A DNA stretch of 64,000 bases from Phycisphaerae bacterium. Its GTDB lineage: Bacteria > Planctomycetota > Phycisphaerae > Sedimentisphaerales > Sedimentisphaeraceae. Under the pieces are notes generated by a model. It saw only the letters and a list, made by a program, of their open reading frames with translations. It made no database searches and was not told the DNA's origin. The stretch's first letter is position 1. Each line of letters starts with the position of its first letter. This document shows positions 14,999 to 31,905 of the stretch, piece by piece. The position numbers and the translations under genes are program-made. Where the stretch lies: assembly GCA_027078365.1 (NCBI GenBank), contig JALWYQ010000042.1, forward strand, positions 1 through 64,000. The letters are read 5' to 3'.

Positions 14999-15043
14999 CC
15001 AAAAACTCCTTTTTTAGTCCATCTAAGAGCATTAAATCACGTC

Positions 15044-15072
15044 ATTTTACTATCATTTAGAAACTTAGCAAA
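15044..15072 (-). promoter_or_regulatory. Candidate promoter of the antiporter gene
   Basis: TTTGCT (15067-15072), a 17-bp spacer and TAAAAT (15044-15049) on the minus strand, about 45 nt before the ATG. Confidence 0.45.
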
Positions 15073-15180
15073 TACTAAAGGATATTTTTTCACAGTTAAG
15101 AAGATGGAGATTTATGAATGGGTGCGATAGAGTTTGGAACTGCAGATAAAAAAACAACTGCACTACTTTAACTGCTTTAA

Positions 15181-15251
15181 CCCAATTAGAGTTGAAACTC
15201 TAACGGGGCAAGCGCAAGTGAACCCTATTAGAGTTTGAAATTCTATCAGGG
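15181..15251. repeat. Two TTAGAGTT palindromic repeats
   Basis: Two direct copies of a small hairpin: 15181-15208 (CCC, then TTAGAGTTGAAACTCTAA, then GGGG) and 15223-15251 (CCCTATTAGAGTTTGAA, then ATTCTATCAGGG). Each is followed by GGGCAAG-GCAAG. Related hairpins occur at 22742, 22829, 28594, 28688 and 28725, so this is a dispersed family. Confidence 0.75.
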
Positions 15252-15383
15252 CAAGTGCAAGAGGCACAACGAAACGGATTAGAACTACTTATTTCATAAA
15301 AAACATAACCACTTAACCGCACATTGGTTGGCATTAAAGTGGTTTCCACAGACAGTGGAGAATAAGGGGTTGAACATTCGTAA

Positions 15384-15705
15384 GCCAAGTGGTATGTGCA
15401 TATTTTGCACATACCAAATCATTTTCATGTCATTTTGAAAATCGTAAATAATGCCGCAAATTCACCGACGTTGGGTGATATCATCGGTGCGTTTAAATCA
15501 ATTAGAATCGTTGAATATATTTTAGGATGAAAAAAATAATTGGAAACCATTTGATGGTAAATTTTGGCAACGCAATTATTGGGAACATATTGTACGCAAC
15601 AAAAATGAATATCAATGCATTAAGCAATATATTATTGATAATCCAGTAAAATGGAAAGATGATGAATTGAACAGTGATAGACCGACATATCAACAATATT
15701 TTTAA
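15384..15705 (+). pseudogene. Decayed REP-associated tyrosine transposase (RAYT, Transposase_17 family)
   Basis: Conceptual translation gives YVHILHIPNHFHVILK with the HUH (His-Phe-His) motif, then SPTLGDIIGAFKSI and a stop at 15529-15531. After a frame change it continues as NNWKPFDG, KFWQRNYWEHIVRN and QYIIDNPVKW and stops at 15703-15705. This order (HUH, GAFKS, FWQRNYxEHIxR, YIxxNPxxW) is diagnostic of RAYTs. The N-terminus is missing because a stop lies at 15381-15383. The frame break and missing start make it a dead copy. A REP/inverted-REP pair lies 25 bp downstream, as expected for a REPtron. There is no annotated gene in the 15000-15832 gap otherwise. Confidence 0.85.
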
Positions 15706-15729
15706 AGAAGGTGAATTACAAATAATACT

Positions 15730-15817
15730 GTAGGGGCGACCCTTGTGGTCGCCCAAAACGATACAATCGTCCAAATTAATATGGTATAAAAAGGGCAACC
15801 ACAAGGGTTGCCCTTAC
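15730..15817. repeat. REP/inverted-REP pair (BIME-like)
   Basis: GTAGGGGCGACCCTTGTGGT (15730 onward, ending TCGCCC) and its inverted relative ending at 15817 (reverse complement GTAAGGGCAACCCTTGTGGT, then TGCCC) face each other across about 36 bp. Each arm is itself a hairpin. The arrangement right behind the transposase relic fits a bacterial interspersed mosaic element mobilised by RAYT. Confidence 0.8.
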
Positions 15818-15832
15818 GATTAGCTAATTCTA

Positions 15833-16573
15833 CTATTCCAGCGACTCTCTTCTATGGCTTCTCAACATCATAGCGAATCGCGCAGCTACCCCACTGCCAA
15901 TCGCATATATCAGAGTAACAAACAATGAAGCGATAAAATAGAGAATAAATACAACTCCAAATCTTACTAACCATGTCCCATCGAGCTTTTGCATATAGAT
16001 CATATCTAATAGGGAAAGCAACATTGTTATTAAAAATGCAGCAATTAATGATGCAAGGAACGAGTATTTAACTTTACATCTCAAGATGATCGCAAGAACA
16101 CACACTATGAAAATAGAACTTCGCTCAAAATAATATAATAGTGGCCATTTAACATAACGATTAGGTTTTATGAATTTAAGAGTGTCGCTTTTAATTTCAT
16201 ATTTCAACAGCAACTCTGTGAATCTCTCTTGAGATAAGGATGTCCAGACCTTATGGTCTTTTGTGTCGAGAATAAAATAGCCAGACTCTGCTGTAATTCT
16301 AGGCTCATTTTGGTTGTAACGAGTTTCACCAACAACTAAATCTCCCTGTATAGTTATCGCAACAATCTCTGCTGGAACTCCATTTGAATAATGACCAAGC
16401 TCAAGCGACTCTGGCGGCGGAGAAATCCACACGCATCCAGAATGAGTGTTCACCAATCTATAGCCATTGGGCAAATTCGTAACATAATCACCAAGACCAG
16501 TTGCGTAGCTACTCGTTGCAATCGCAACAACGGTGAATAAACAGTAGATTATCTTTTGTGTATCCCTAACCAC
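15833..16573 (-). CDS. Hypothetical membrane protein, 246 aa
   Basis: No family recognised. An N-terminal hydrophobic signal (IIYCLFTVVAIATSSYA) is followed by an approximately 110-residue extracytoplasmic domain with TNLPNGYRLVNTHSG and RITAESGYFILDTKDHKVWTSLSQERF. Three TM helices follow from about residue 152 to 230, then a basic tail. The start is GTG with only a weak GGAA site. It lies 35 nt downstream of the 115-residue gene on the same strand, so the two may be cotranscribed. The extracytoplasmic domain looks like a small beta-rich module that reports stored values, but no function is claimed. Confidence 0.6.
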   Translation of the reverse strand: MVRDTQKIIYCLFTVVAIATSSYATGLGDYVTNLPNGYRLVNTHSGCVWISPPPESLELGHYSNGVPAEIVAITIQGDLVVGETRYNQNEPRITAESGYFILDTKDHKVWTSLSQERFTELLLKYEIKSDTLKFIKPNRYVKWPLLYYFERSSIFIVCVLAIILRCKVKYSFLASLIAAFLITMLLSLLDMIYMQKLDGTWLVRFGVVFILYFIASLFVTLIYAIGSGVAARFAMMLRSHRRESLE

Positions 16574-16608
16574 TATAAAAATTCCACATATCTGTTGAGA
16601 GCTTTCGC

Positions 16609-16956
16609 CTATTCCTCAAATTTATACACTCCATCATCTTTTACTATCCCTATTTCTGTATAACTAGGATAAGGTCCAACATATCCTATCTCACCGAGTT
16701 TTTGGGACTCTACTTCAACAAAGATACCACTCTCCGTTGTGATTCCATGTAAACGAACTTCCTTACTTTTCCCTTCTTGTAGTTTCTCGACCAGAATTTC
16801 TCCGCCAGGATATGATAGAACAATATTTTGCATGCTCGACCCACTCTTGTTAACAATGCACACAGTGGCCGGAGCTAAGAATTCCTCGTAAACATAAAAA
16901 CAAGAAGCAATCGCTAATACTAAAAATAACAAAATCAGAATCGTTTTTCTTTTCAT
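16609..16956 (-). CDS. Hypothetical membrane-anchored protein, 115 aa
   Basis: No family recognised. A single N-terminal TM helix or uncleaved signal (TILILLFLVLAIASCFYVY) precedes a ~90-residue domain. That domain contains VCIVNKSGSSMQNIVLSYPG, a pattern often seen in small beta-sandwich envelope proteins that start with an I-x-N-x-S strand. A Cys at residue 19 is inside the hydrophobic segment but does not make a good lipobox. GGAG precedes the ATG. It probably forms a two-gene unit with the downstream 246-residue membrane protein. Confidence 0.6.
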   Translation of the reverse strand: MKRKTILILLFLVLAIASCFYVYEEFLAPATVCIVNKSGSSMQNIVLSYPGGEILVEKLQEGKSKEVRLHGITTESGIFVEVESQKLGEIGYVGPYPSYTEIGIVKDDGVYKFEE

Positions 16957-17125
16957 TCCTCAATAGTCTCCATGTAAGGATCTCTACTATCGCACAACAG
17001 GCTTATAACCACGCACCTGCATAACCAAAGTTACTCAAATCCATTTATCTACATCTCAAACAAAAGAATATTGGTTTTCGCTGATAGCGAAAGTTAAACA
17101 CGTCGGGCTCACTTGCCCCACCGCG

Positions 17126-20100
17126 CTAACGGCGTCTCCTAATCCCCAAACAACCAAGAGCGAATATCGCCATTGTAATTGGTTCTGGAACAGTTAAAAC
17201 TGTGTGACCGTAGAGATCGTTATTCACGTCAGAGATATACTCAAGAGTATAATCTCTACCGATAGTAGCGTTCATAATGTTTCTCCAATCATTGACTGAT
17301 TCATCCCAAAAATAAACATTATCATCACCAGCAACAAGTGCAAGAAAATCAGCAATAGACGAATCTGCATCGCCCGCCAAAGCAAGCATACCGCCAGTAG
17401 AGATTCCAACAAAAGAACCTGCATAATTGTTTATTGTAAGAATTCCGTCAACCATTACGAGACCACCGTTAGTGATTGATAGAGAAGCTGCGCCACTACC
17501 ACCCATGTTTAATGAACCATTATCTACCCAACCAGAACCACTTTTATTGATAAGCCAACTTGAACCAACACCGTCAACTACTACATCACCTGCAGAACCA
17601 AAATAGTAAGCAATGTAGCCAGAACCACTTGTGGCATGTCCGCCATTAGTGATTGAGAGAGAACCGCTACCTTCATCTCCAATACTTAACCAGCCAGAGC
17701 TATCCCATCTTGAACCAACGCCATCAATGATTACCGTTCCCAAAGAATTCTTTGATATACCTATATCGCTACTGTAACTAGTAACAATTCCACCATTTAA
17801 TATACTAAGAGAACCTGTGCCATTATCACCAATACTAAGGTCTCCGGAACTATCCCATCTTGAACCAACACCACCAACTACCACGCTACCTACAGAATTA
17901 GCAGAGTAACCAATGGAGCTATAACCATTTGTAACATTTCCACCATTGGTAATTGACAAAGAACCGCTGCCATCATTACCAACATAAAGACTACCTGAAT
18001 TGTCCCAACTTGAACCAACACCGTCAACTACTACATTACCTTGAGAATATGCTTTGTAACCAATATAGCCATGACGATTTGTAACATTTCCACCATTAGT
18101 AATCGATAGAGAACCGCTACCATAATTACCAACACGTAACCAGTCAGAAGTCTCCAAACTTGAGCCAACGCCATCAACTGTTACACTGCCAGAACTTAAT
18201 CCGTGACCAATACTGCTGTAAACACTTGTAACAATTCCACCATTAGCGATTGATAGAGAACTGCTGGCATCTCTAGCGACAGTAAGATTTGAGTTATTCC
18301 AACTTGAACCAACACCATCAACCACCACGCTACCTACAGAATCAGAAGAGTAACCAATATAGCCATGATCGTTTGCAACATGCCCGCCATTAGTGATTGA
18401 TAAAGAACCGTTACCTTCATTGCCAACAAAAAGATCGCCAGAGTTATCCCAACTTGAACCATCACCAGCAACTACCACGCTACCTTGAGTATCACAAGAG
18501 TGACCAATGTAACCAGAGCTACTTGTAGCATGTCCACCATTAGTGATTGATAGAGAACCATTGCCTCCATTGGCGATATGAAGGATGCCAGAGCTCTCCC
18601 AACTTGAACCAACTCCATCAATGATTGCACTTCCTGAAGAGTCTTGGAATAGACCTATATCGCTATTACAACTTGTAACAGTTCCACCATTTAATATACT
18701 AAGAGAACCTGTGCCTCTATCACCAACCCTGAGATCGTTGGAGTTATCCCATCTTGAACCATCACCATCAACTGTTGCATTGCCTACAGAATCAGAATTA
18801 TTACCAATAATGGCAGAACCATTTGTCACATGCCCGCCATTAATGATTGATAGAGAACCATTGCCATCATTGCCAACATAAAGATTGCCTGAGTTATCCC
18901 AACTTGAACCAGCACCATCAACTATTGCATTACCTACAGAACCAGAGGAGTAACCAATGTAACCAGTGCTATTTGTAGCATGTCCGCCATTCGTAATTGA
19001 TAAAGAACCGCTGCCATCCTTGCCGACATAAAGATCACTGGAGTTATCCCAACTTGAGCCAATACCATCAACGACTGCGCTGCCTTGAGAATCTGCCTTG
19101 TAACCAATATAGCCAACAGCACTAGCAATTTTTACACCTTCCGTTATGCTCATAGAACCAGTGCCAGAGTAACCTGCGCCTAAATAGCTACTGTCATGAG
19201 CATCTAGGTTGATTGTTATATTCTGATCAGATGAATTATTCATTACAAAAGTTTGATTGAGCCCATGCGTAGACTCAAATACTAAATCAGCGTCTACTAT
19301 AAGTTCTTTTGTATTTATAGTTCCTGTTCCTTTTAGCTCTTGCGAGCCAGCTAAAAGAGATTTTGTAGTAAGCATACCTCCATTGAAATTGATTATTCCA
19401 TCGCCACTACCTATGTCTACACTTGTTTCACCGGCCACAGTAACCATTCCACCATTCGTAATTGATAGAGATCCGCTACCACTATTACCGACACCAAGGT
19501 CGCCGGAACACTCCCAACTTGAATCAACACCATCAACTACTACGTTGCCTTGAGAGCCAGAAGAAAAACCAATGTAACTAGAGCTACTTGTAGTATGTCC
19601 ACCATTAGTGATTGATAAAGAACCTGTACCTTCATTTCCAACACGAATACCATACCAACCGGAACTCTCCCAACTTGAACCAACGCCATCAACTACTACG
19701 CTACCTTGAGAGCCTGAAGAGAAACCAATATCGCTAGAGCCACTTGTAGCATGTCCGCCATTAGTAATTGATAAAGAACCTGTGCCTTCATTTCCAACAC
19801 TAATGCCAGTCCAGTCGGAAAACTCCCATCTTGAACCAACACCATCAACTAGCACACTACCTTGGGAACCAGATTCATAACCGATATAACCAGAACCATT
19901 TGCAACATATCCTCCATTAGTAATTAAAAGAGAACCGTTGCCTCTATAGCCAACATAAAGTTTCTTGAAACTCTTCCAACTTGAACCAACACCATCAACT
20001 ACCACGCTACCTTGAGAATCTGCCTTGTAACCAATAGAGCCACTATTACTTGTAACATTTCCACCATCAGTAATTAACAAAGAACCGTTGCCCTCTCCAC

Positions 20101-22414
20101 CGACAGAGAGTCCTGAGCTACTCCAACTTGAACCAGCACCATCAACTATTGCACTACCTACAGAACCAGAACACAAGCCAATACTACTAGAACTACCTGT
20201 AACATGTCCGCCATTCGTAATTGATAGAGATCCACTACCTTCGTCACCGACAAAAAGATAATCTGAACTCCAATTTGAATCAACGCCATCAACTATTGCA
20301 CTACCTACAGAACCCGCTTTGTAACCAATATAGCCGTAAGTGCTAGCAACTCTTACACCATCAGTAACTCCCATAGAACCATTTCCAGAGTAGCCTACGC
20401 CTAAATAACGGCTGTCATGGGCGTCTAGGCTGATTGTTATATCCTGGTCAGATGAGTTATTCATTACAAAGGTTTGGCTGCTACCATGTGTAGAGTCAAA
20501 TACTAGATCGGCATCTGCGATAAGCCCATTTGTATTTATAGTTCCCGTTCCTTTTAGCTCTTGCGTTCCCGCTAAAAGAAATTCTGTAGTAAGTGTGCCT
20601 CCATTAAAATTGATTATTCCTGCATCTACGTTTGTTCCACCAGATACAACCGTTCCGCCATTAGCGATTGATAGGGAACTGTTGCCACGGACAGTTAGCA
20701 AACTAGAATTCCAACTCGAACCAATACCATCGACTACTACATAACTTTGAGAGCCATAAGAGTTACCAATATAGCTATAATGATTTGTAACATGCCCGCC
20801 ATTAGTGATTGATAGAGAACCACTGCCATCATCATCGCCATAATAGCCACCGCCGATATAAAGAATATATAAGCTATCCCAACTTGAACCAACACCATCA
20901 ACTACTACGCTACCTTGAGAACTAATGTAGTCACGATAACTTTTAACATGCCCGCCATTAGTGATTAATAGAGAACCACTGCCATATTTACCGACAGCTA
21001 AACTGTCAGATATCTCCCAATTTGAGCCAACACCATCAATTATTACACTACCTACAGAACCTTCATTGTAACCAATATAGCCACGATTACTTGTAACAAT
21101 TCCACCATTAGTGATTGAGAGAGAGCCGCTACCATTGTAACCAATATAACCATAATCACTTGTAACAATTCCACCATTAGTTACTGAGAGAGAGCCGCTA
21201 CCTTTATAGCCGACAGTGAGTTCTCCTGAGTTATTCCAACTTGAACCAGCACCATCAACTACCACGCTACCTTGAGAATCTGCCTTGTAACCAATATGGC
21301 CACTATCACTTGTAACATTTCCACCATCAGTGATTGATAAAGAACCGCTGCTACTATTGCCTTTACCGATATAAAGGTCGCTAGAATTGTTCCAACTTGA
21401 ACCATCACCATCAACTACTACATTACCTACAGAACCTACCTTGTAACCAATATAGCCATCATCACTAGCAACTCTTACACCTTCTGTAACACGCATAGAG
21501 CCAGTGCCAGAGTAGCCTGCGCCTAAAATACCACTGCCATCGGCGTCTAGATTGATAGTTATATTCTGATCAGATGAGTTATTCATTACGAAAGTTTGAC
21601 TGACCCCATGTGTAGAGTCAAATATTAAATCAGTATCTACGATAAGCCCGTTTGTATTTATAGTTCCCGTTCCTTTTAGCTCTTTTGTTCCAGCTGAAAG
21701 AGATTTAGTAGTGAGTGTGCCTCCATCAAAATTGATTACTCCAGTGTAATCCTCACTGCTTACGCTTGTTCTGCCAGCCACAGTAACCATTCCACCATTA
21801 GTGATTGATAGAGAACCTGCGTCAGCATAAACGCCGACACAGAGACAATCGTAATTCTCCCAACTTGAGCCAACGCCGTCAACTATTACATTGCCAGCAA
21901 TTATGCCAGAATCACTTGTAAGATTTCCGCCATTAATGATTGAGATAAATGCGCTACCTTTATCACCATTGCCGATATCCAGAGCACCTGAACTGTTCCA
22001 ACTTGAACCAACACCGTCAACTATTACACTACCAGAACCATAATGGTCACCAATATTGCCAGGGCCACTTGTAACATTTCCACCATTAGTGATTAAGAGG
22101 GAGCCGTTACCATCTCTACCGATACCTAACCAGTCAAAGGTTTGCCAACTTGAACCAGCACCATCGACTATCACATCGCCTTGGGAACCAGTATCGTAAC
22201 CAATCGTGCCAGAGCCACTTGTAATATTTCCACCATCAGTAATTGATAGAGAACCACTACCAGTTTTTCCTATATAGGCATCCGTATATCGATTCCAAAG
22301 ATTTGGATTGGCTGGATCTACGTCACCCGAGAAAGTAACATCGCCGCAAGCAAATGTAGCTACGAAAAGATAGAAAACTGCGAAAAAAACGAAAGAACTC
22401 AAATTCCTCTTCAT
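17126..22414 (-). CDS. Giant PEP-CTERM protein of T5SS/PEP-CTERM-associated repeats (paralogue 1)
   Basis: The 1,762-residue secreted protein has a signal peptide (MKRNLSSFVFFAVFYLFVAT, cut before CGDVTFSG), DVDPANPNLW, then about 25 copies (hand count of the DGxGSSW motif) of a ~45-50-residue unit: SLSITNGGxVTS, GYIGYxxGSxGxVVVDG, GSSW, LxVGxxGxG. Three longer blocks interrupt the array with INFxGGTLTTKSL, ELKGTGTINT, DLVFDSTHG and FVMNNSSDQNITI, giving a higher-order repeat. The end is a PEP-CTERM signal: VPEPITMAIFALGCLGIRRRR split as VPEP, hydrophobic helix, RRRR. A beta-helix surface filament processed by an exosortase is inferred. There is no autotransporter barrel. GGGAG precedes the ATG. 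Confidence 0.9.
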   Translation of the reverse strand: MKRNLSSFVFFAVFYLFVATFACGDVTFSGDVDPANPNLWNRYTDAYIGKTGSGSLSITDGGNITSGSGTIGYDTGSQGDVIVDGAGSSWQTFDWLGIGRDGNGSLLITNGGNVTSGPGNIGDHYGSGSVIVDGVGSSWNSSGALDIGNGDKGSAFISIINGGNLTSDSGIIAGNVIVDGVGSSWENYDCLCVGVYADAGSLSITNGGMVTVAGRTSVSSEDYTGVINFDGGTLTTKSLSAGTKELKGTGTINTNGLIVDTDLIFDSTHGVSQTFVMNNSSDQNITINLDADGSGILGAGYSGTGSMRVTEGVRVASDDGYIGYKVGSVGNVVVDGDGSSWNNSSDLYIGKGNSSSGSLSITDGGNVTSDSGHIGYKADSQGSVVVDGAGSSWNNSGELTVGYKGSGSLSVTNGGIVTSDYGYIGYNGSGSLSITNGGIVTSNRGYIGYNEGSVGSVIIDGVGSNWEISDSLAVGKYGSGSLLITNGGHVKSYRDYISSQGSVVVDGVGSSWDSLYILYIGGGYYGDDDGSGSLSITNGGHVTNHYSYIGNSYGSQSYVVVDGIGSSWNSSLLTVRGNSSLSIANGGTVVSGGTNVDAGIINFNGGTLTTEFLLAGTQELKGTGTINTNGLIADADLVFDSTHGSSQTFVMNNSSDQDITISLDAHDSRYLGVGYSGNGSMGVTDGVRVASTYGYIGYKAGSVGSAIVDGVDSNWSSDYLFVGDEGSGSLSITNGGHVTGSSSSIGLCSGSVGSAIVDGAGSSWSSSGLSVGGEGNGSLLITDGGNVTSNSGSIGYKADSQGSVVVDGVGSSWKSFKKLYVGYRGNGSLLITNGGYVANGSGYIGYESGSQGSVLVDGVGSRWEFSDWTGISVGNEGTGSLSITNGGHATSGSSDIGFSSGSQGSVVVDGVGSSWESSGWYGIRVGNEGTGSLSITNGGHTTSSSSYIGFSSGSQGNVVVDGVDSSWECSGDLGVGNSGSGSLSITNGGMVTVAGETSVDIGSGDGIINFNGGMLTTKSLLAGSQELKGTGTINTKELIVDADLVFESTHGLNQTFVMNNSSDQNITINLDAHDSSYLGAGYSGTGSMSITEGVKIASAVGYIGYKADSQGSAVVDGIGSSWDNSSDLYVGKDGSGSLSITNGGHATNSTGYIGYSSGSVGNAIVDGAGSSWDNSGNLYVGNDGNGSLSIINGGHVTNGSAIIGNNSDSVGNATVDGDGSRWDNSNDLRVGDRGTGSLSILNGGTVTSCNSDIGLFQDSSGSAIIDGVGSSWESSGILHIANGGNGSLSITNGGHATSSSGYIGHSCDTQGSVVVAGDGSSWDNSGDLFVGNEGNGSLSITNGGHVANDHGYIGYSSDSVGSVVVDGVGSSWNNSNLTVARDASSSLSIANGGIVTSVYSSIGHGLSSGSVTVDGVGSSLETSDWLRVGNYGSGSLSITNGGNVTNRHGYIGYKAYSQGNVVVDGVGSSWDNSGSLYVGNDGSGSLSITNGGNVTNGYSSIGYSANSVGSVVVGGVGSRWDSSGDLSIGDNGTGSLSILNGGIVTSYSSDIGISKNSLGTVIIDGVGSRWDSSGWLSIGDEGSGSLSITNGGHATSGSGYIAYYFGSAGDVVVDGVGSSWLINKSGSGWVDNGSLNMGGSGAASLSITNGGLVMVDGILTINNYAGSFVGISTGGMLALAGDADSSIADFLALVAGDDNVYFWDESVNDWRNIMNATIGRDYTLEYISDVNNDLYGHTVLTVPEPITMAIFALGCLGIRRRR

Positions 22415-22578
22415 GGACTATCTCCCTTTCTTTGAATGTATTCCTTACAAAGTCTGCGCAGAACACAAGCAGACACTTTTCTATTTGCGAAAAAAGAGAT
22501 GGCCCCTGTGAATTGCCTTCCTTTCCTCATTTTCCCCTATCGGGAATCACTAAGTCAACATCGCCCGATAATAAAGCT
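22415..22578 (-). promoter_or_regulatory. Conserved leader of giant repeat gene 1
   Basis: The 5' untranslated region shares ordered blocks with the leader of the downstream paralogue (28343-28489): CTAGC, ATCGGGCG, GGCC(A/G)TCTCTTTTTT and GCAAAT. GGC and GCC before the T-run could form a weak intrinsic-terminator-like hairpin. A longer stem TATCGGG/CCCGATA is also possible. Conservation in non-coding DNA suggests either recent duplication or function. Confidence 0.45.
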
Positions 22579-22606
22579 AGTATAACTTATTGAGATGAAT
22601 AGTCAA
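22579..22606 (-). promoter_or_regulatory. Promoter of giant repeat gene 1
   Basis: TTGACT (22601-22606), a 16-bp spacer and TATACT (22579-22584) on the minus strand. The same boxes and spacing recur before the paralogue. Confidence 0.7.
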
Positions 22607-22729
22607 GTATATTGAGGAATGCGCAACCTTTTCACACTCCAATTAGGCGGTTTTAAGTTCATACGAAAACAACAATCTGGATTCATTCGTACATTAGTAG
22701 CTAATTCAAAGCATTTAAAAGGTTTTAAA

Positions 22730-22842
22730 ATCTGCGTTCACCCTATTAGAGCTTTCAATCTTATCTCTCAATCCACTCCGCAAACATCATCTCCCCAACA
22801 CTGAGCGGCACATAAAAGTATTTACTCAAACTCTAACAGGGT
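22730..22842. repeat. Duplicated intergenic block with TTAGAG half-palindromes
   Basis: Between the two giant genes this block contains TCACCCTATTAGAG (22738-22751) and ACTCTAACAGGGT (22830-22842), the two arms of the dispersed TTAGAG palindrome held about 80 bp apart. A block with the same order (CACCCTATTAGA, TCAATCCA, CCGCAAACAT, CACTGAG, ACTCTAACAGG) lies at 28592-28700, so the flanking DNA was duplicated with the gene. I see no gene in 22607-22903. Confidence 0.65.
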
Positions 22843-22918
22843 AAATCTGCGGTTTTCTTTTTATCTGCGTTCATCTGTGTCCATCTGCGGTTGCAATCTG
22901 CGTTTATCTGCGTCTTCT
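22843..22918. repeat. Tandem degenerate ATCTGCG repeat
   Basis: Six consecutive degenerate units of about 10-13 bp begin with TCTGCG or TCTGTG: TCTGCGG, TCTGCGTTCA, TCTGTGTCCA, TCTGCGGTTGCAA, TCTGCGTTTA, TCTGCGTC. The array runs into the last codons (RRRR-stop) of the second giant gene. A longer version lies at 28700-28858, and single units on the opposite strand (GATGGACGCAGA) lie at 41706 and 44157. Confidence 0.75.
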
Positions 22919-25900
22919 AATCCCCAAACAACCAAGAGCGAATATCGCCATTGTAACTGGTTCTGGAATTGCCGTAACAGTTAAGACTGTGTGGTCATAA
23001 AGATCGCTATTTACATCAGAGATATACTCAAGAGTGTAATCATCACCGAGAGTAGCATTTATGATATTGCTCCAATCGTTAATTGATTCATCCCAAAAAC
23101 GAATATCATCACTACCATCAACAAGTGCAAGAAAATCAGCAATAGACGAATCCGCATCACCGCTCAAAGCAAGCATACCGCCGGTAGACATTTCGACGAA
23201 AGAATCTCCATTAAGATTAGCGTCTATTGTAAGAACCCCATCAACGATTACAATGCCGCCATTGATTATTGATAGAGAACCGCTACCGCTATGGCCTATA
23301 TCTAAAGAACCATTATCGTCCCAATCAGAACCACTACCATTAATAAGCCAACTTGAACCAACACCATCAACTACTACATCACCTGCAGAACCAGAACAGT
23401 AAGCAATATAGCCAGAACCACTTGTGGCATGTCCGCCATTAGTGATTGAGAGAGAACCGCTACCTTCATCTCCAATGCTCAGCCAACCGGAACTGTCCAA
23501 ACTTGAACCGGCACCATCGATAATTACATACCCTTTAGAATCTTGCGATATAGCTATATCAACGTTGTAACTAGTAACAGTGCCGCCATTTAACACATTA
23601 AGAGAGCCTCTACCACTATCACCGATGTAGAGATCGCTAGAATTATCCCATCTTGAACCAACGCCATCAACTGTCACGCTACCTGCAGAAATAGAATGTT
23701 GACCAATATAGCCAAAAGCACTTGTAGCATGTCCGCCATTAGTGATTGAGAGAGAGCCTCTACCATAATAGGCAACACTTAACCAACCGGAGCTGTCCCA
23801 ATTTGAACCAACTCCATCAACAGTTGCCTCTCCAGTAGAATATAGTGATAAACTTATGTAACTGTTGTAACTAGTAACAGTGCCACCATTTAACACACTA
23901 AGAGAGCCTCTACCATTATCGCCAATATTGAGATCTCTGGAGCAATCCCAGCTTGAACCAACTCCATCAACAACTGCAGTGGCCAGATAAGTAAAGGATT
24001 TGCCAATGTAGCTATGATCACTTGTGATATTTCCACCATTAGTTATTGTGACAGAAGCACTCCCATCATTACCAATATAAAGTTTTTTTGAAGTCCAGCT
24101 GGAACCGTCACCATCAACTACCACGCTACAAAGATTATCATAACCAGCAACAGAGCCATAATCACTTGTTACGTTTCCGCCATCAGTAATCAATAGCGAA
24201 CCACTGCCACCATTACCTACATCAAGCTCACTAGATACCCAGCTTGAGCCAACTCCATCAACTACCACACTACCCAAACCGTATTTGTGAATATATCCAT
24301 AAGAATATCCATAACCAATACTACCATGGTCACTAATAACACTTCCGCCATTGGTGATTGATAGAGAACCGCTACCCTTATACCCAACCCATAACAGGCC
24401 AGAACTCTGCCAACTCGAACTAGCACCATCAACCGCCACACTACCTTGAGCACCTGCATAATAGCCAATATAGCAATCAGCAGTATTTGTAACATTTCCT
24501 CCATTAGCTACTGCTATAGAGGCATTGCCATGTTTACCAACATAAAGTAGATCAGAGTTTTGCCAGCTTGAACCATCACCATCAACTAATACACTACCCA
24601 CAGAATCAGAGTGGCGGCCAATTGTAGAAGTAGCGCTCGTAACATTTCCTCCATTGGTGATTGAGAGAGAACCACTTCCAGAATTACCAACATAAAGACA
24701 ATTCGAGCTATTCCAGCCTGAACCAACCCCATCAACCAATACATTACCTACAGAGCCCATCTTGAGACCGATATAGCCGTTGTAGCCAGTAACTACCACG
24801 CCACCCTTAACATTCATAGAACCATAGTCAGAACAACCTGCACCTAAAAAACCACTGCCATCTACATCAAGATTGATTGTTATATTTTGCTCAGAGGAAT
24901 CATTCAGTGCAAGTGTTTGAGTAAGCCCATGCGCAGAATCAAACAGCAAATCAGTATCTGTTACAATTCCATGAGTATTTATTGTTCCTATTCCTTTGAG
25001 CTCTTTTGCTCCAGCTAAAAGAGATTCTGTATCAAGCGTGCCGCTATCGAAATTGATTACTCCAGCTACACCACCAACTCTTGTCTCTCCAGCCGTAGTA
25101 ACTATTGCACCATTAGTGATTGATAATGCCCCTGTACCATACCTACCAACATAAAGACCTTCTAAATTGTGCAAACTTGAACCATCACCATCAACTGTTA
25201 CATTAGCCACAGAATCAGAGAGGTATCCAATCACGGTGGAGCTACTTGTAACGCTTGCGCCATTAGTAATTGATAGAGAAGCCTCACCATTTCCACCCAC
25301 AGTAAGACCGTCTGAGTTATTCCAACTTGAATCAACGCCGTCAACTACTACATTGCCTACAGAACCAGATTCACAACCGATGCAAGCAGAATCACTTGTA
25401 ACGTTTCCACCATTACTAATTGACAATGAACCACTGCCATACTTGCCAATATACAGATCGTCGGAGCTGTTCCAGCTTGAATCACTTCCGTCAACAACCA
25501 CACTACCGTGAGAACCCCTCTTGCAACCAATATAACCACCGACACTAGCAACTGTTAAACCATCTGTTACGCTCATTGATCCCGTACCAGAATAGCCTGC
25601 GCCTAAGAAGCCACTACCATTAGCGTCGAGGTTAATTGTTATATTTTGCTCTGGTGAATTACTCATTACAAAAGTTTGACTGAGCCCATGCGTAGAATCA
25701 AATACTAAATCAACATCTGCCACAATCGCTTTTGTGTTTATAGTCCCAACTCCTTCGAGCTCTTGCGAACCAGCTAAAAGAGATTTTGTAGCAAGAGTGC
25801 CTCCATTAAAATTGATTACTCCAGTGCCATCCCATTCGCCTATTTTTGTCTCACCACCCACAGTAACCATTCCACCATTACTGATTGATAATGTTCCTAC

Positions 25901-28342
25901 TCCGTATCTACCAATACTGAGATCCTCTGAATTGAACCAACTTGAGCCAACACCGTCAACCACCACGCTACCAGGGCCGTAATGGTAACTAATGTATCCA
26001 TTGTCACTTGTAACACTTCCACCATTAGTTATCGATAGAGACGCGCTACCATAATTACCAACAATAAGATCTCCAGAAGCCCAGCTTGAGCCAACGCCAT
26101 CAACTGTTACATTACCCACAGAATCAGCATCGTAACCAATCTTACCACTCTCACTTGTAACAGTACCGCCATCAGTGATTGATAGAGAACCATTGCCATA
26201 ATAGCCAACAGTAAGATCTCTCGATGTCCAACTCGAACCATCACCATCTACTATCATCTCACCTGTAGAACCTTCCCTATAGCCAATACATCCACAATTA
26301 CTTACAACAGAGCCGCCATTAGTGATTGATAGAGAACCGCTACCTGAAGATCCGACATGTATCCAATTAGATCGATCCCAAATCGAACCAACCCCATCAA
26401 CAACTACACTACCCACTGAACCTTCCCTAGAACCAATAGAGCAATCAGAACTTTGAAGATGCCCGCCATTGATGATTGATAGAGAACCGTTGCCAGCACC
26501 GCCGACAATAAGCCCATCGCCGTTACCATAACTTGGGCAGAACCAAGTTGAGCCAGCACCATCAACCGTTACACTACCGTGAGAACCTGCCTTGTAACCA
26601 ATATAGCCGTCACGACTTGCTACCATTACACCTTCTCTTATGCTAATAGAACCGCTACCAGAATAGCCTGCGCCGAGATAGGCATCGTAATCAGCGTATA
26701 GATTGATTGTTATATTCTGGTCAGATGAATTATTCATTACAAAGGTCTGACTAAGTCCATGTGTAGAGTCAAATACTAAATCAGTATCTACTATAATCGC
26801 TTTTGTATTTATAGTTCCCGTCCCTTTGAGCTCTTGCGAACCAGCTAGAAGAGATTTTGTCGTAAGCGTACCACCATCAAAATTGATTATTCCATTGCCA
26901 TCATATTCGCCTACGGTTGTCTCACGAGCAACAGTAACCTCTCCACCATTAGCGATTAATAGAGAGCCACTACTGCTACCGCTACCGATATGTAGTGAGC
27001 CAGAATTCCAACTTGAACCCACGCCATCAACTGTTACGCTACCTACTGAACCTGCCTTATAACCAACATAGCCACGAGTACAAACAACTGACACGCCTTC
27101 TGTTATACTCATAGAGCCAGTGCCAGAGTAACCTGCGCCTAAAATACCACTGCCATCAGCGTCTAGGTTGATTGTTATATTTTGGTCAGAGGAGTTACTC
27201 ATTACAAAGGTTGGGTTGAGCCCATGTATGGATTCAAACACCAAATCAGCATCTACTATAAGCGATTTTGTATTTACAGTTCCTGTTCCTTTTAGCTCTT
27301 TTGTTCCCGCTGTAAGAGTCTTTGTAGTAAGCGAACCTCCATCAAAATTAATTACTCCATCGCCATTCCCTGAGCTCACTCTTGTTTCATCAGCCACAGT
27401 TACAATTCCACCATTAGTGATTGAGAGAGAAGCTCTATCGCCATCGCCAATACTTAACCAGTCAAGATTCCAACTGGAACCAACACCATCTACAATTGCA
27501 CTACCCTGAGATTCGGAAGAACTACCAATCGCCACATAACGACTTGTAACATTTCCGCCATTAGTGATTGAGAGAGAACCACTACCCTCTTTGGCGATCC
27601 ATAAGAAGTCGAAATTTTTAAAACTTGAACCAGAACCATCAACCGCTACGCTACCTACTGAACCTACCTTGTAACCAATGTAGCATTTAGAAGTACTCGT
27701 AACATTACCACCATTGATGATTGAGAGAGAACCGCTACCGCTATCACCGACGTTTAACCAGCTAGAATTCCAACTTGAATTAACACCATCAACTACTGCG
27801 TTGCCTGTGGAGCCAGAAAAATAGCCAATATCGCCTGAAATAGTTGTAACATTTCCACCATTAGTTATTGAGATAGAACCTCTACCGCTAACACCTACAC
27901 TTAACCCGTTAGAATTCCAACTTGAACCAACACCATCAACCACCGCACTACCTTGAGAGCCAGAATAAAAACCAATGCGGCCAGACTTACTTCTAACGTT
28001 TCCTCCGTTAGTAATTGAAAGAGAACCGCTACCATAATTGCCAATGCGCAGCCAGTCAGAGCTTTGCCAATTAGAGCCTACACCATCGACTACTACATCG
28101 CCTTGAGAGCCAGAAGAATCACCAATATAGCTATGGTCGCTTGAGATACTTCCACCATCAGTGATTGAAAGAGATCCGTTACCAGTTTTTCCTACGTAGG
28201 CATCGGTGTCTTGATCCCAAAGATTTGGATTGGCTGGGTCTACGTCACCAGAGCTGGTAACATCGCCGCAGGCGTGAGCGGTTAAAAAAAAGATTGAAAC
28301 TGCGGCTGTGAAAAAAATGAACGAAACTAGATTCCTCTTCAT
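22904..28342 (-). CDS. Giant PEP-CTERM protein of T5SS/PEP-CTERM-associated repeats (paralogue 2)
   Basis: The 1,812-residue paralogue of the next gene has the same plan: signal peptide (MKRNLVSFIFF), HACGDVT, DVDPANPNLW, about 24 units carrying DGxGSSW (hand count), four longer INFDGGTL/ELKGTGT/DLVFDSTHG blocks (paralogue 1 has three), and a final IPEPVTMAIF, ALGCLG, IRRRR PEP-CTERM signal. An in-frame start 20 codons upstream exists, but the ATG at 28342 aligns with paralogue 1 and has AGGAAG at 9 nt. The C-terminal ~100 codons are close to identical in DNA to those of paralogue 1, which suggests recent duplication or gene conversion. A surface-exposed beta-helix is inferred. The partner exosortase is not in the window. 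Confidence 0.9.
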   Translation of the reverse strand: MKRNLVSFIFFTAAVSIFFLTAHACGDVTSSGDVDPANPNLWDQDTDAYVGKTGNGSLSITDGGSISSDHSYIGDSSGSQGDVVVDGVGSNWQSSDWLRIGNYGSGSLSITNGGNVRSKSGRIGFYSGSQGSAVVDGVGSSWNSNGLSVGVSGRGSISITNGGNVTTISGDIGYFSGSTGNAVVDGVNSSWNSSWLNVGDSGSGSLSIINGGNVTSTSKCYIGYKVGSVGSVAVDGSGSSFKNFDFLWIAKEGSGSLSITNGGNVTSRYVAIGSSSESQGSAIVDGVGSSWNLDWLSIGDGDRASLSITNGGIVTVADETRVSSGNGDGVINFDGGSLTTKTLTAGTKELKGTGTVNTKSLIVDADLVFESIHGLNPTFVMSNSSDQNITINLDADGSGILGAGYSGTGSMSITEGVSVVCTRGYVGYKAGSVGSVTVDGVGSSWNSGSLHIGSGSSSGSLLIANGGEVTVARETTVGEYDGNGIINFDGGTLTTKSLLAGSQELKGTGTINTKAIIVDTDLVFDSTHGLSQTFVMNNSSDQNITINLYADYDAYLGAGYSGSGSISIREGVMVASRDGYIGYKAGSHGSVTVDGAGSTWFCPSYGNGDGLIVGGAGNGSLSIINGGHLQSSDCSIGSREGSVGSVVVDGVGSIWDRSNWIHVGSSGSGSLSITNGGSVVSNCGCIGYREGSTGEMIVDGDGSSWTSRDLTVGYYGNGSLSITDGGTVTSESGKIGYDADSVGNVTVDGVGSSWASGDLIVGNYGSASLSITNGGSVTSDNGYISYHYGPGSVVVDGVGSSWFNSEDLSIGRYGVGTLSISNGGMVTVGGETKIGEWDGTGVINFNGGTLATKSLLAGSQELEGVGTINTKAIVADVDLVFDSTHGLSQTFVMSNSPEQNITINLDANGSGFLGAGYSGTGSMSVTDGLTVASVGGYIGCKRGSHGSVVVDGSDSSWNSSDDLYIGKYGSGSLSISNGGNVTSDSACIGCESGSVGNVVVDGVDSSWNNSDGLTVGGNGEASLSITNGASVTSSSTVIGYLSDSVANVTVDGDGSSLHNLEGLYVGRYGTGALSITNGAIVTTAGETRVGGVAGVINFDSGTLDTESLLAGAKELKGIGTINTHGIVTDTDLLFDSAHGLTQTLALNDSSEQNITINLDVDGSGFLGAGCSDYGSMNVKGGVVVTGYNGYIGLKMGSVGNVLVDGVGSGWNSSNCLYVGNSGSGSLSITNGGNVTSATSTIGRHSDSVGSVLVDGDGSSWQNSDLLYVGKHGNASIAVANGGNVTNTADCYIGYYAGAQGSVAVDGASSSWQSSGLLWVGYKGSGSLSITNGGSVISDHGSIGYGYSYGYIHKYGLGSVVVDGVGSSWVSSELDVGNGGSGSLLITDGGNVTSDYGSVAGYDNLCSVVVDGDGSSWTSKKLYIGNDGSASVTITNGGNITSDHSYIGKSFTYLATAVVDGVGSSWDCSRDLNIGDNGRGSLSVLNGGTVTSYNSYISLSLYSTGEATVDGVGSNWDSSGWLSVAYYGRGSLSITNGGHATSAFGYIGQHSISAGSVTVDGVGSRWDNSSDLYIGDSGRGSLNVLNGGTVTSYNVDIAISQDSKGYVIIDGAGSSLDSSGWLSIGDEGSGSLSITNGGHATSGSGYIAYCSGSAGDVVVDGVGSSWLINGSGSDWDDNGSLDIGHSGSGSLSIINGGIVIVDGVLTIDANLNGDSFVEMSTGGMLALSGDADSSIADFLALVDGSDDIRFWDESINDWSNIINATLGDDYTLEYISDVNSDLYDHTVLTVTAIPEPVTMAIFALGCLGIRRRR

Positions 28343-28489
28343 AGGCCATCTTCCTTTCAAAACACATTTCTCGCAAAGTTCACGTTGAACTTCCACGCAC
28401 ACACTCCATTTGCAAAAAAAGAGACGGCCTTTGAAAATAGCCTTTATTCTCTAAACCCCCTTCGAGCGATGACGCCCGATAGTAAGGCT
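28343..28489 (-). promoter_or_regulatory. Conserved leader of giant repeat gene 2
   Basis: Counterpart of 22415-22578. Shared blocks are CTAGC, ATCGGGCG, GGC-ATTTTCA, GGCCGTCTCTTTTTTT and GCAAAT. GGCT/GGCC followed by seven T resembles a short attenuator hairpin. The middle of the leader has diverged while these blocks stayed. Confidence 0.45.
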
Positions 28490-28517
28490 AGTATAACCTA
28501 TTGAAGCAAATAATCAA
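28490..28517 (-). promoter_or_regulatory. Promoter of giant repeat gene 2
   Basis: TTGATT (28512-28517), a 16-bp spacer and TATACT (28490-28495), with the same spacing and flanking sequence as the promoter at 22579-22606. Confidence 0.65.
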
Positions 28518-28539
28518 ACATTAAAAGATTGAAAAACTC

Positions 28540-28557
28540 GGACACCTGCAACCGGCC
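28540..28557. repeat. 18-bp dispersed repeat GGACACCTGCAACCGGCC
   Basis: An exact copy of 18 bp recurs at 30345-30362 inside a larger palindrome. Here it is a fragment next to the promoter of the second giant gene. Confidence 0.7.
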
Positions 28558-28699
28558 AAAAAACCAGCATAGTCAGCTCATATGCATCATTTGCGTCCAC
28601 CCTATTAGATTTTTTAATCGCACCTTTCAATCCACCCCGCAAACATAATTTCTTAGCACTGAGTAGCACACAATAGCATTTACTCAAAACTCTAACAGG

Positions 28700-28858
28700 A
28701 TAAATCTGTTTTTATCTGCGCTCGCCCTGTTAGAGTTTTAACTCTAATAGGGTTCATCTGCGCCTATCTGCGGTTGCAATCTGGGTTTATCTGTATTTAT
28801 CTTTAATCTGCGTTTACCCGTGTTAATCTGCGGTTGCAATCTGAGTCCATCAGCGGTC
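28700..28858. repeat. ATCTGCG tandem array split by a TTAGAG palindrome
   Basis: Degenerate units (ATCTGCG, ATCTGCGG, TTGCAATCTG and so on) repeat through this segment and touch the amrS stop codon. Within them at 28725-28752 lies CCCTGTTAGAGTT-TT-AACTCTAATAGGG, a near-perfect hairpin, as if the palindrome had inserted into the array. The 28518-28849 gap holds no gene. Confidence 0.75.
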
Positions 28859-29887
28859 CCAAACACCCGCAATCTTCTCTGCGCAGCTTGGGCATTTGCC
28901 ATTTTCTAAATGGTTGGCTACTACCTCAAAAGACCGGCGTTTTATTAGGGTCTCGCCGCAGTTTGGGCAAATGGTGTCTCTGCCAGACTCGCTTCTAACA
29001 TTACCAAGGTACACATAATCAAGGCCGGCGGAGCTAGCTATTTGGGCTGCCGATGTTAGAGTTGCAATTGGTGTTGCGCGTTCGCTATCCATTTTAAACG
29101 CCCCATGAAATGCGCTTAGGTGCCAAGGTGTGCTAGGCGATGTTTTCTTGGCTATAAACTCTGCGATATCGCGCAGCTCGCGGGGGTTGTCGTTTTGGTC
29201 TGGTACGATGAGCGTTGTGAGCTCTAGCCAAATATCGGTGCTGTTTGAAATCGTTTCGATATTTCTTAATACTGGTTCTAAACTGGCGTGGCAAACGTCT
29301 TTGTAGAAAGAGTCTGAGAAGGATTTTAGGTCTATGTTTATCGCATCAAGAAAGCCCTGCATCTTCTCAATCGCTTTCTCTGAAAAATAACCATTGCTAA
29401 CAAATATATTTTTAAGCCCATTCTCTTTGGCGATAATAGCTGTTTCTTGGGCAAATTCAAAAAAGATAGTTGGCTCAGTGTATGTGTAGGAAACACTTGC
29501 GCATCCTGCGCGCAGAGCCATATCAACAATCTGCTGAGGTGAATAAGAATCGCCGCAATCAAACAGACCACTAACATCGGGCTGGCTAATCTGCCAGTTC
29601 TGACAAAAACCACATTTAAAATTGCATCCAATCGCCGCAATCGAAAAGCTCTTTGTGGCGGGCAAGAAATGATAAAGAGGTTTTTTCTCGATTGGATCGA
29701 CTGCTAACGCGCAGAGCCTATCATAGTTTAGGCTGTAGAGCTTGCCGTCGATATTTTTGCGCACTTGGCAACGACCAAGCTGATTGTTTGAGAGCCTGCA
29801 ATAAAAATTGCAAAGCTCGCATCTAACAGCACTATCATCTAGAGGCTGCCACAAACTCGCCTCTTTGAGTTTTGTTTCTTCTCGCAT
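28850..29887 (-). CDS. amrS: AmmeMemoRadiSam system radical SAM enzyme
   Basis: The 345-residue radical SAM protein resembles pyruvate formate-lyase activating enzymes. It has an N-terminal Cys-rich segment (CELCNFYC and GRCQVR), the cluster motif CNFKCGFC with Cys88, Cys92 and Cys95, SYTYTEPTIFFE, LKNIFVSNGYF, INIDLKSF, and a C-terminal rubredoxin-like knuckle (CPNCGETLI and CPSCAEKIAGVW) typical of AmrS. AGGAGG lies 9 nt before the ATG. The usual partners (AMMECR1 and MEMO proteins) are not in the window. The biochemical reaction of the system is not established. It is transcribed alone. Confidence 0.85.
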   Translation of the reverse strand: MREETKLKEASLWQPLDDSAVRCELCNFYCRLSNNQLGRCQVRKNIDGKLYSLNYDRLCALAVDPIEKKPLYHFLPATKSFSIAAIGCNFKCGFCQNWQISQPDVSGLFDCGDSYSPQQIVDMALRAGCASVSYTYTEPTIFFEFAQETAIIAKENGLKNIFVSNGYFSEKAIEKMQGFLDAINIDLKSFSDSFYKDVCHASLEPVLRNIETISNSTDIWLELTTLIVPDQNDNPRELRDIAEFIAKKTSPSTPWHLSAFHGAFKMDSERATPIATLTSAAQIASSAGLDYVYLGNVRSESGRDTICPNCGETLIKRRSFEVVANHLENGKCPSCAEKIAGVWDR

Positions 29888-30060
29888 AAACGCAAAACCT
29901 CCTATTCTTAAATATCGCTAGTTGTTGATTGTAGCAACAAAAAAATACTGCGGCTATATAATAAATTCAACTACCAGGACTGGCACAACCAGCCCTAGAT
30001 GGCTCATCTCAGCAGCCCTCCATTTCAATTCCTTTGCGTTTAGTTGGAATAACGTTAATT

Positions 30061-30175
30061 AGGTGCCGCACCTAACGGAGCTAATCTGTTTTGTTGCATG
30101 TCATTTTTTCTACAAAGGTATTGCTCCGACGGAGCAAGATCTGCGATACAGTCTTGCTATAATCCCAGAGGGATG
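30061..30175. repeat. Degenerate intergenic repeat
   Basis: The segment contains AGGTGCCGCACCTAACGGAG, a TTTTTTCTACAAAGGTATTG core, GCTCCGACGGAGC (palindromic) and CCCAGAGGGATGACA. The pattern resembles non-coding repeats seen across several bacterial phyla, from memory only. No gene is visible in 29888-30516. Confidence 0.45.
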
Positions 30176-30187
30176 ACACCTTGTACC

Positions 30188-30391
30188 GTAAAATTGGGAC
30201 TGGTATGTTCTGCCCTTTAGGGTCGGTTGTACCTGTCCCGAATTTTACCGCGATTAGTAAAGACACACCAGTCTCCCGCGATTGAATGTAACGCACAAGT
30301 TTTACTGTGATTGAACGGTGCATGCAGACTGTGCCGTAAAACAGGGACACCTGCAACCGGCCGGAGGCCGAACGTACCAGTCCCGGTTTTA
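30188..30391. repeat. Two large GGGAC palindromes
   Basis: At 30188-30248, GTAAAATTGGGAC-T-GGTA faces TACC-T-GTCCCGAATTTTAC. At 30338-30391, AAAACAGGGAC faces GTCCCGGTTTTAC around CCTGCAACCGGCCGGAGGCCG. The internal parts of the two are related in inverted orientation (GGGACAGGTACAACCGACC versus GGGACACCTGCAACCGGCC). Each can fold into a long hairpin. Confidence 0.7.
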
Positions 30392-30405
30392 CTCAAGCCT
30401 CCTGC

Positions 30406-30465
30406 ATTCCAAATACCATCGCCCCTTTCAAGATCTTCGTGTTCTTCATTGTAGAATAGGTTTTA
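30406..30465. repeat. Dispersed repeat, CATCGCCCC...TTCTTCAT type, copy 1
   Basis: CCATCGCCCC-TTTCAAGATCTTCG-TGTTCTTCAT-AATAGGTTTTA recurs with few changes at 44806-44868, and a poorer version lies near 53450-53500. Confidence 0.6.
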
Positions 30466-30479
30466 TTCTTTGTCTCGGG

Positions 30480-30508
30480 TTGCTTTTATCGAGTCTATTA
30501 GATATACT
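30480..30508 (+). promoter_or_regulatory. Promoter giving a probably leaderless miaB mRNA
   Basis: TTGCTT (30480-30485), a 17-bp spacer and TATACT (30503-30508). The -10 box ends only 8 nt before the miaB ATG, so transcription should start at or next to the A of the start codon. There is no Shine-Dalgarno sequence. Confidence 0.65.
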
Positions 30509-30516
30509 GCCCGGCT

Positions 30517-31905
30517 ATGAAAGATAAAAAACTATACATAAAAAGCTTTGGTTGCCAGATGAATAAACTCGATGCTGGGCTAGTTACTGCCGCATTCGAG
30601 GAAGATGGCTATAGTATAACCGATACAGAAGACAATGCAGATGTTGTTTTGTTCAACACCTGCTCAGTCCGTGCGAACGCCGAGAACCGTGTTCATTCAC
30701 GGATTGGATATATAGGCCACCTAAAGAAGACTCGCCCCCATATGGTACTTGGGATTATTGGCTGTATGGCGCAGCGGCTTGGTGAAGAGTTTTTAAAAGA
30801 CACGGCTGTCGATATCGTCTGTGGCCCGAGCCAAATTCCAGACTTGCTCGGCATGGTAAACGATGTAATTTCAGAGAGAAAAAAAATAGTGAGTGTCTGC
30901 GCAGATGTTCGCGAAAAGCCAGACGCTACTATCTCAGAGACGCTAGACGAATTTGAGTATGCCTTCGACTCGAGCAAAGATCAAAAGACGAATCAGGCGT
31001 TTGTGCGTGTGATGCGCGGATGTAACAACTTTTGCTCATACTGCATTGTGCCGTTTGTGCGCGGGCCAGAAGTCTCAAGAAAACCGCAGCAAATTTTTGA
31101 TCAATGCAAAAAACTTGTCGATGAAGGGGCAAAACAAATCACCCTGCTTGGGCAAACTGTGAACTCTTACGAATACAGCGCAGGCGAGAAGACATACCGC
31201 CTGCCCGATCTGCTTGAGATGCTATCAGAGATTGATTCTCTAAAGTGGCTAAGATTTATAACAAGCTACCCAAACCTAAACCACGACGAAGACTTATTCA
31301 AGGCGATGGGAGAGCTTGATAAGGTTTGCCCATACTTGCACATGCCTGCGCAGAGCGGTTCGGATAGAATTCTAAAAGCTATGAATCGCCATTACAGCGC
31401 GCAGCAGTATCTAGACCAACTAGCCGTGGCAAGGAGCTACGTGCCTGATATCGCGATTGCTGGCGATTTTATAGTTGGCTTCCCTGGTGAGACGGATGAG
31501 GATTTTGAAGCTACGGTTGAACTTGTGAAAAAAGCGAACTACAAAAACATATTCGCATTCAAATACTCGCCGCGACCTGGAACCAAAACTGATAAAAAAC
31601 TCGAAGATAACATTCCAGAAGAAATAAAAAAGCTGCGCAACAATGAGCTTCTAAAGGTTCAAGAGCAAATTAGCGCAGAGTACAACAAAAGATACGAAGG
31701 AAAAATTCTCGAGGTTTTAGTCGAAGGACCAAGCAAGAAGGCGCATCTAAACAAGGCGCAAAATGCCAACAACCCACAGCTAATCGCCCGAACAGCAACA
31801 GACCATATCGTCGTGTTCAACGGCCCAGAGAGTTTAGCTGGAAATTTTGCGCAGGTAGAGATTGAAAAAACGATGCCGCTGACATTGTTTGGAAATCTGG
31901 TTTAG
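30517..31905 (+). CDS. miaB: tRNA-2-methylthio-N6-dimethylallyladenosine synthase
   Basis: Radical SAM methylthiotransferase acting on position 37 of tRNAs that read UNN codons. The 462-residue protein has the N-terminal MTTase domain with cluster-binding Cys13 (SFGCQMN), Cys49 (NTCSVR) and Cys83 (GCMAQR). The radical SAM motif CNNFCSYC follows with Cys169, Cys173 and Cys176, then PFVRGPE, LLGQTVNSY and AGDFIVGFPGET. The C-terminal TRAM domain includes EGPSKK. This is the full architecture and normal length. The start is fixed by the conserved beginning, and the promoter leaves no leader. It is monocistronic. Confidence 0.95.
   Translation: MKDKKLYIKSFGCQMNKLDAGLVTAAFEEDGYSITDTEDNADVVLFNTCSVRANAENRVHSRIGYIGHLKKTRPHMVLGIIGCMAQRLGEEFLKDTAVDIVCGPSQIPDLLGMVNDVISERKKIVSVCADVREKPDATISETLDEFEYAFDSSKDQKTNQAFVRVMRGCNNFCSYCIVPFVRGPEVSRKPQQIFDQCKKLVDEGAKQITLLGQTVNSYEYSAGEKTYRLPDLLEMLSEIDSLKWLRFITSYPNLNHDEDLFKAMGELDKVCPYLHMPAQSGSDRILKAMNRHYSAQQYLDQLAVARSYVPDIAIAGDFIVGFPGETDEDFEATVELVKKANYKNIFAFKYSPRPGTKTDKKLEDNIPEEIKKLRNNELLKVQEQISAEYNKRYEGKILEVLVEGPSKKAHLNKAQNANNPQLIARTATDHIVVFNGPESLAGNFAQVEIEKTMPLTLFGNLV

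Follow-up and report, generated by a model that had tools for sequence, protein, structure and literature searches.

Diverged tandem genes for giant TIGR04393 repeat proteins in an uncultured Phycisphaerae bacterium: part of a family of six genes sharing a promoter and a leader

Two giant repeat genes in tandem

The analyzed window, a stretch of 64,000 nucleotides, belongs to a draft MAG (G000, 2.29 Mb, 86% complete) and contains two giant genes arranged head-to-tail on the minus strand; this locus is referred to below as C42, after its contig. The genes and the domains of their products are as follows.

17126..22414, minus strand: copy 1, a 1762-aa TIGR04393 repeat protein with a putative signal peptide and a PEP-CTERM tail
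21503..21817, minus strand: copy 1, INFxGGTL module 1
20381..20680, minus strand: copy 1, INFxGGTL module 2
19160..19474, minus strand: copy 1, INFxGGTL module 3
17129..17470, minus strand: copy 1, C-terminal domain and PEP-CTERM, conserved in six genes
22904..28342, minus strand: copy 2, a 1812-aa paralogue of copy 1, start corrected to ATG 28342
27119..27433, minus strand: copy 2, INFxGGTL module 1
26654..26968, minus strand: copy 2, INFxGGTL module 2
25583..25897, minus strand: copy 2, INFxGGTL module 3
24824..25132, minus strand: copy 2, INFxGGTL module 4, variant INFDSGTL
22907..23263, minus strand: copy 2, C-terminal domain and PEP-CTERM

The open reading frame of copy 2 was first called as 22904-28402, with a GTG start at 28402; the most likely start is instead the ATG at 28342, because the resulting N-terminus, MKRN, aligns with the ATG of copy 1 and a Shine-Dalgarno sequence, AAAGGAAG, precedes it. 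Both proteins start with MKRN and have a basic start and a hydrophobic core that, read by eye, resemble a signal peptide, and both terminate in PEP-x-TM-RRRR. A profile search identifies 24 and 25 stretches of the 49-position TIGR04393 repeat in the two proteins, with scores of 1055 and 989 bits compared to the curated cut-off of 23, so that both qualify as repeat proteins. With ~24-25 repeats per protein, far over the cut-off, they resemble the TIGR04393 rpt_T5SS_PEPC proteins of NCBIfam, but differ from these in that a ~105-aa INFxGGTL module divides the array into blocks, and in being encoded by a family of six genes that share a leader (see below). Among the papers searched, none names the TIGR04393 repeat.

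The initial annotation described paralogous tandem genes with modular arrays, carrying three such modules in one copy and four in the other, and matching signal peptides, PEP-CTERM ends and promoters; all these features are found in both copies, the signal peptides as putative ones, and the module counts agree. Repetitive genes in a draft MAG could in principle be an assembly artefact of a single gene, but for these two this is extremely improbable: the copies are 28% divergent in nucleotides with intact frames, their module numbers differ, and a second tandem pair is present on another contig, C14.

Probable export, surface sorting and fold

The Pfam PEP-CTERM profile detects copy 1 with 25.7 bits, above the cut-off, in a genome search and, at borderline, with 19.6 against a cut-off of 20.7 in a whole-protein scan; the protein scan yields no Pfam match for copy 2. 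The copy 2 tail carries IPEPVTMAIFALGCLGIRRRR, aligned to the copy 1 tail, and both copies possess the features by which PEP-CTERM tails were recognized, namely a C-terminal PEP motif, a TM helix and a basic end. PEP-CTERM matches occur in 26 places in the host genome, including a cluster of five within 3.5 kb (G000:C34:37627-41107), and two exosortases are encoded on C45 and C15. In the putative signal peptide, the PEP-TM-Arg C-terminal tail and the presence of exosortases in the genome, as well as in forming transcription units of one gene each behind long upstream regions, the two genes resemble those for PEP-CTERM/exosortase (EpsH) proteins (PMC1569441).

The name of the repeat, which gave the 'T5SS' label of the initial annotation, suggests autotransporters, secreted by the type V route. 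TIGR04393 is indeed also found in autotransporters, one of them in the host genome, and the repeats match the PRK14849 autotransporter model, albeit far under the cut-off. However, in a profile search the PF03797 autotransporter barrel is absent from both copies, even though the barrel of a relative on C15, the positive control, is readily detected, and both proteins finish in a PEP-CTERM-like tail. A type Va autotransporter is refuted because the barrel is missing; the label thus stems merely from the name of the repeat, and type V secretion of these proteins can be considered exceedingly unlikely.

On C15 (L050 703-3799; G000:C15:47702-50798), an exosortase gene directly adjoins this true autotransporter (PF03797 barrel, E 2e-60; two TIGR04393 matches), and two closely similar PEP-type proteins are adjacent; both surface routes are found here side by side. 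A short TIGR04393 protein on C5 (L051 1216-2394) has a terminal dockerin-type domain rather than PEP-CTERM.

For a 357-aa stretch containing one INF module, AlphaFold2 gives an all-beta model (mean pLDDT 92.5, pTM 0.85) that reads as a solenoid; modelling of the C-terminal domain is poor, with pLDDT ~30 there. A search by sequence found no solved relatives. The best Foldseek matches of the repeat model are weak, i.e., TibA (E 1.2e-3) and antigen 43b (E 2.8e-3), with TM ~0.25, below the usual significance. TibA and antigen 43b are self-associating, beta-helical autotransporter passengers, or adhesins. The likeness to such passengers thus consists in the predicted all-beta solenoid, whereas the copies differ from them in having no autotransporter barrel and in the route of export and anchoring. 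A phage origin was rejected, copy 1 having no PHROGs match.

Copies 1 and 2 are probably long rod-like proteins attached to the cell surface. Given the putative signal peptide, the PEP-CTERM tail and the exosortases, the most economical reading is that they would form rods of the surface or matrix and serve in aggregation or attachment.

A six-gene subfamily

The two copies belong to a subfamily of six long-array genes on four contigs of the host genome. In addition to the C42 pair, this subfamily includes the tandem pair C14A and C14B (L047 3183-12637; G000:C14:25182-34636), of 1595 and 1368 codons, and single genes on C8 (740 codons) and C30 (658 codons). More distant TIGR04393 genes are present in the same genome outside the subfamily.

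Over all aligned codons, copies 1 and 2 show 64% amino acid and 72% nucleotide identity, and differ at 37% of four-fold sites. This four-fold difference of 0.37 speaks against a recent duplication; the comparison indicates that the copies are old, clearly diverged paralogues. The C-terminal domain, common to the six genes with 71-89% amino acid identity, does not single out the pair either. The domain of copy 2 is 87% identical to that of C14A, 84% to C14B and 83% to C30, but just 80% to that of copy 1 (83-84% in nucleotides). Since copy 2 is closer here to unlinked genes than to its neighbour, the 3' similarity is family-wide. The description of the 3' ends as nearly identical is not confirmed, and gene conversion as read from this domain was rejected, unlinked paralogues being as close or closer. 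Similarity between the 3' ends of tandem genes is no evidence of conversion before comparison with unlinked paralogues. The C-terminal tree joins the two C42 copies with support of 91/92, which is not decisive, and the tree of the N-terminus and leader separates them, with their grouping not rejected (p-AU 0.18), so that these trees do not settle whether the C42 copies are sisters.

Shared promoter and leader

Upstream of each copy lie a promoter and a leader.

22579..22606, minus strand: copy 1 promoter, TTGACT-16 bp-TATACT, read directly
22415..22578, minus strand: copy 1 leader, containing the TATCGGGCG block as well as UCUCUUUUU...AAGGGAGA, whose predicted pairing covers the Shine-Dalgarno sequence
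28490..28517, minus strand: copy 2 promoter, TTGATT-16 bp-TATACT, read directly
28343..28489, minus strand: copy 2 leader, with elements as in the copy 1 leader

The match between the copies noted in the initial annotation is real but not specific to the pair: all six long-array genes have TTGACT-like and TATACT-like boxes with 16 or 17 bp spacing, followed by TATTATCGGGCG. A search of the host genome for the core comprising the -10 box and TATCGGGCG, with at most three mismatches, identifies exactly the six long-array genes, with no match to a reversed-pattern control. In the congener G001, a draft MAG, the core is found at one family gene and at one site with no repeat gene behind it (L151 1480-1560; G001:C126), possibly a relic or a captured promoter; it was detected in none of three family-level and seven order-level genomes.

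All seven leaders have a minimum-energy fold (z -1.0 to -3.1) in which the Shine-Dalgarno sequence is paired, and the leader terminus, AAGGGAGA or a close variant, pairs with the upstream UCUCUUUUU. The helix is paired in 87.5% of cells compared to 57-65% for slid partners; its covariation is not above that of shuffles. An Rfam search of positions 14500-31000, up to E 5, finds no family matching either leader, so that a known riboswitch or sRNA was rejected; a sub-threshold CRISPR-DR41 hit (E 3.9) lies on the opposite strand, just upstream of the copy 1 promoter.

The PEP-CTERM promoters described in Proteobacteria are of the sigma-54 type, with a sigma-54/PrsR site (PMC1569441, PMC9850573), whereas the genes analyzed here have a sigma-70-like promoter and a structured leader. 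Because the leader is predicted to cover the ribosome-binding site, expression might be set after transcription, and translational control by hiding this site is plausible, if unproven. A bolder proposal, which we regard as speculative and rather unlikely in its entirety, is that the six giant genes constitute a post-transcriptional regulon, in which the U-rich strand of a genus-specific leader would mask the Shine-Dalgarno sequence, in the manner of an RNA thermometer or until a small RNA or a protein releases it, and would switch all the surface rods together, the rods themselves being reshuffled unit by unit.

The intergenic regions also contain dispersed repeats.

22730..22910, minus strand: dispersed repeat block downstream of copy 2, with CGCAGAT units and a CCCTGTTAGAG...CTCTAATAGGG element
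28589..28849, minus strand: dispersed repeat block of the same type, upstream of copy 2

In the window, CGCAGAT units and CCCTGTTAGAG/CTCTAATAGGG palindromes occur far more often than expected by chance, and they are distributed over the genomes of both congeners. The outer upstream block recurs at many unrelated loci; copies of it lie on C27 and in a congener. This outer part of the upstream intergenic blocks, previously taken as a feature of the pair, is thus a dispersed repeat and is ruled out as part of the duplication. A further dispersed intergenic repeat is located at 15179-15261. Upstream of copy 2, positions 28850-29887 encode a radical SAM enzyme of the AmmeMemoRadiSam system; the neighbouring radical-SAM protein has a 95% match on contig L097 of a congener, a Phycisphaerae MAG, the sole congener fragment found in a contig search with the flanking gene. 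This match assigns the window to Phycisphaerae.

Possible exchange between neighbours and array turnover

A patch specific to the C42 pair adjoins the C-terminal domain.

17471..17785, minus strand: last two repeat units of copy 1, with a 68-bp identical tract at 17616-17683
23264..23578, minus strand: last two repeat units of copy 2, with a 68-bp identical tract at 23409-23476

The last two units are 81% identical in amino acids and 82% in nucleotides between copies 1 and 2, compared to 50-63% in amino acids for every other family pair, including the positional orthologues C14A and G001-C242. A 150-bp block is 93% identical in nucleotides between blocks of 73% and 76%, and the 68-bp tract is the only identical one found in the 3' region of the copies. 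These patterns suggest that the neighbours underwent limited exchange, or that a terminal duplication is common to both.

A rival reading, a recent tandem duplication kept alike by ongoing gene conversion as a hypervariable surface system, would account for the pair-specific units and for the C14 tandem pair, in which repeat units of the two genes are 93% and 88% identical across the junction. It nevertheless appears improbable in view of the gene-wide divergence at both all and four-fold sites, of a C-terminal domain that is as similar, or more so, in unlinked genes as within the pair, and of an N-terminus and leader that do not group the copies, though without rejecting their grouping. From the claim of gene conversion there remains the terminal patch with its identical tract, which fits local exchange; the similarity of the 3' domain, being family-wide, falls away. 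Conversely, old tandem paralogues might have inherited the terminal units from the duplicated ancestor with no exchange after duplication, consistent with the high divergence of the arrays and the union of the copies in the C-terminal tree; we consider this doubtful, given that the 93% block amid less similar ones and the difference-free tract better fit later local exchange, and that the C14 positional orthologues no longer share terminal units.

The arrays were also said to expand or contract in register. Mean nucleotide identity between repeat units is 0.68-0.76 within genes versus 0.69-0.74 between genes, with best matches scattered; units of the same gene are no more alike than those of different genes, which does not support this claim. 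The C14 locus of G001 is syntenic with that of the host genome, with flanks of 7.7 kb and more than 14 kb at ~81-84% identity, increasing to 87% closest to the gene. The G001 gene is colinear with its counterpart through the C-terminal domain only; a deeper 90% match is ~890 bp (~six units) out of register, so that neither array length nor order is conserved at this orthologous sister locus. Because colinearity of the array is lost within flanks that are ~81-87% identical, the arrays appear to change between species. The contigs of G001 break off within the arrays, as they also do on both sides of the C42 locus, so that this indication of turnover comes from one partial gene, and repeat misassembly in a draft MAG is possible.

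Biological implications

Taken together, these observations are best, and with reasonable though far from full confidence, explained if the copies are two diverged genes from a family of six encoding giant beta-solenoid proteins of modular build, which would be Sec-exported, exosortase-sorted surface or matrix rods, with a shared promoter, possible co-control after transcription by a shared, genus-specific leader, array turnover and limited exchange. Under this explanation, each protein, by virtue of its putative signal peptide, would be exported by Sec; an exosortase would process the PEP-CTERM tail, leaving the protein anchored or released at the surface, where it would act as an elongated rod for adhesion or for scaffolding the matrix. 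The six genes have in common one sigma-70-like promoter and a leader of ~150-200 nt, both conserved in sequence; by its predicted fold, the leader would cover the ribosome-binding site. Recombination between units would lengthen, shorten and reshuffle the arrays over species time scales, as seen in the partial gene at the sister locus, and exchange between tandem neighbours would be limited, perhaps accounting for the one ~0.3 kb patch beside the conserved C-terminal domain.

What remains of the claims of hypervariability and conversion is a single short patch in the pair and between-species turnover at the sister locus. The pair is well observed and belongs to a type of gene family that is already known; this family varies a familiar theme and is not a demonstrated hypervariable system. 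Small and clean, with six genes, two tandem pairs and one congener, it allows array turnover, domain conservation and the shared leader to be separated.
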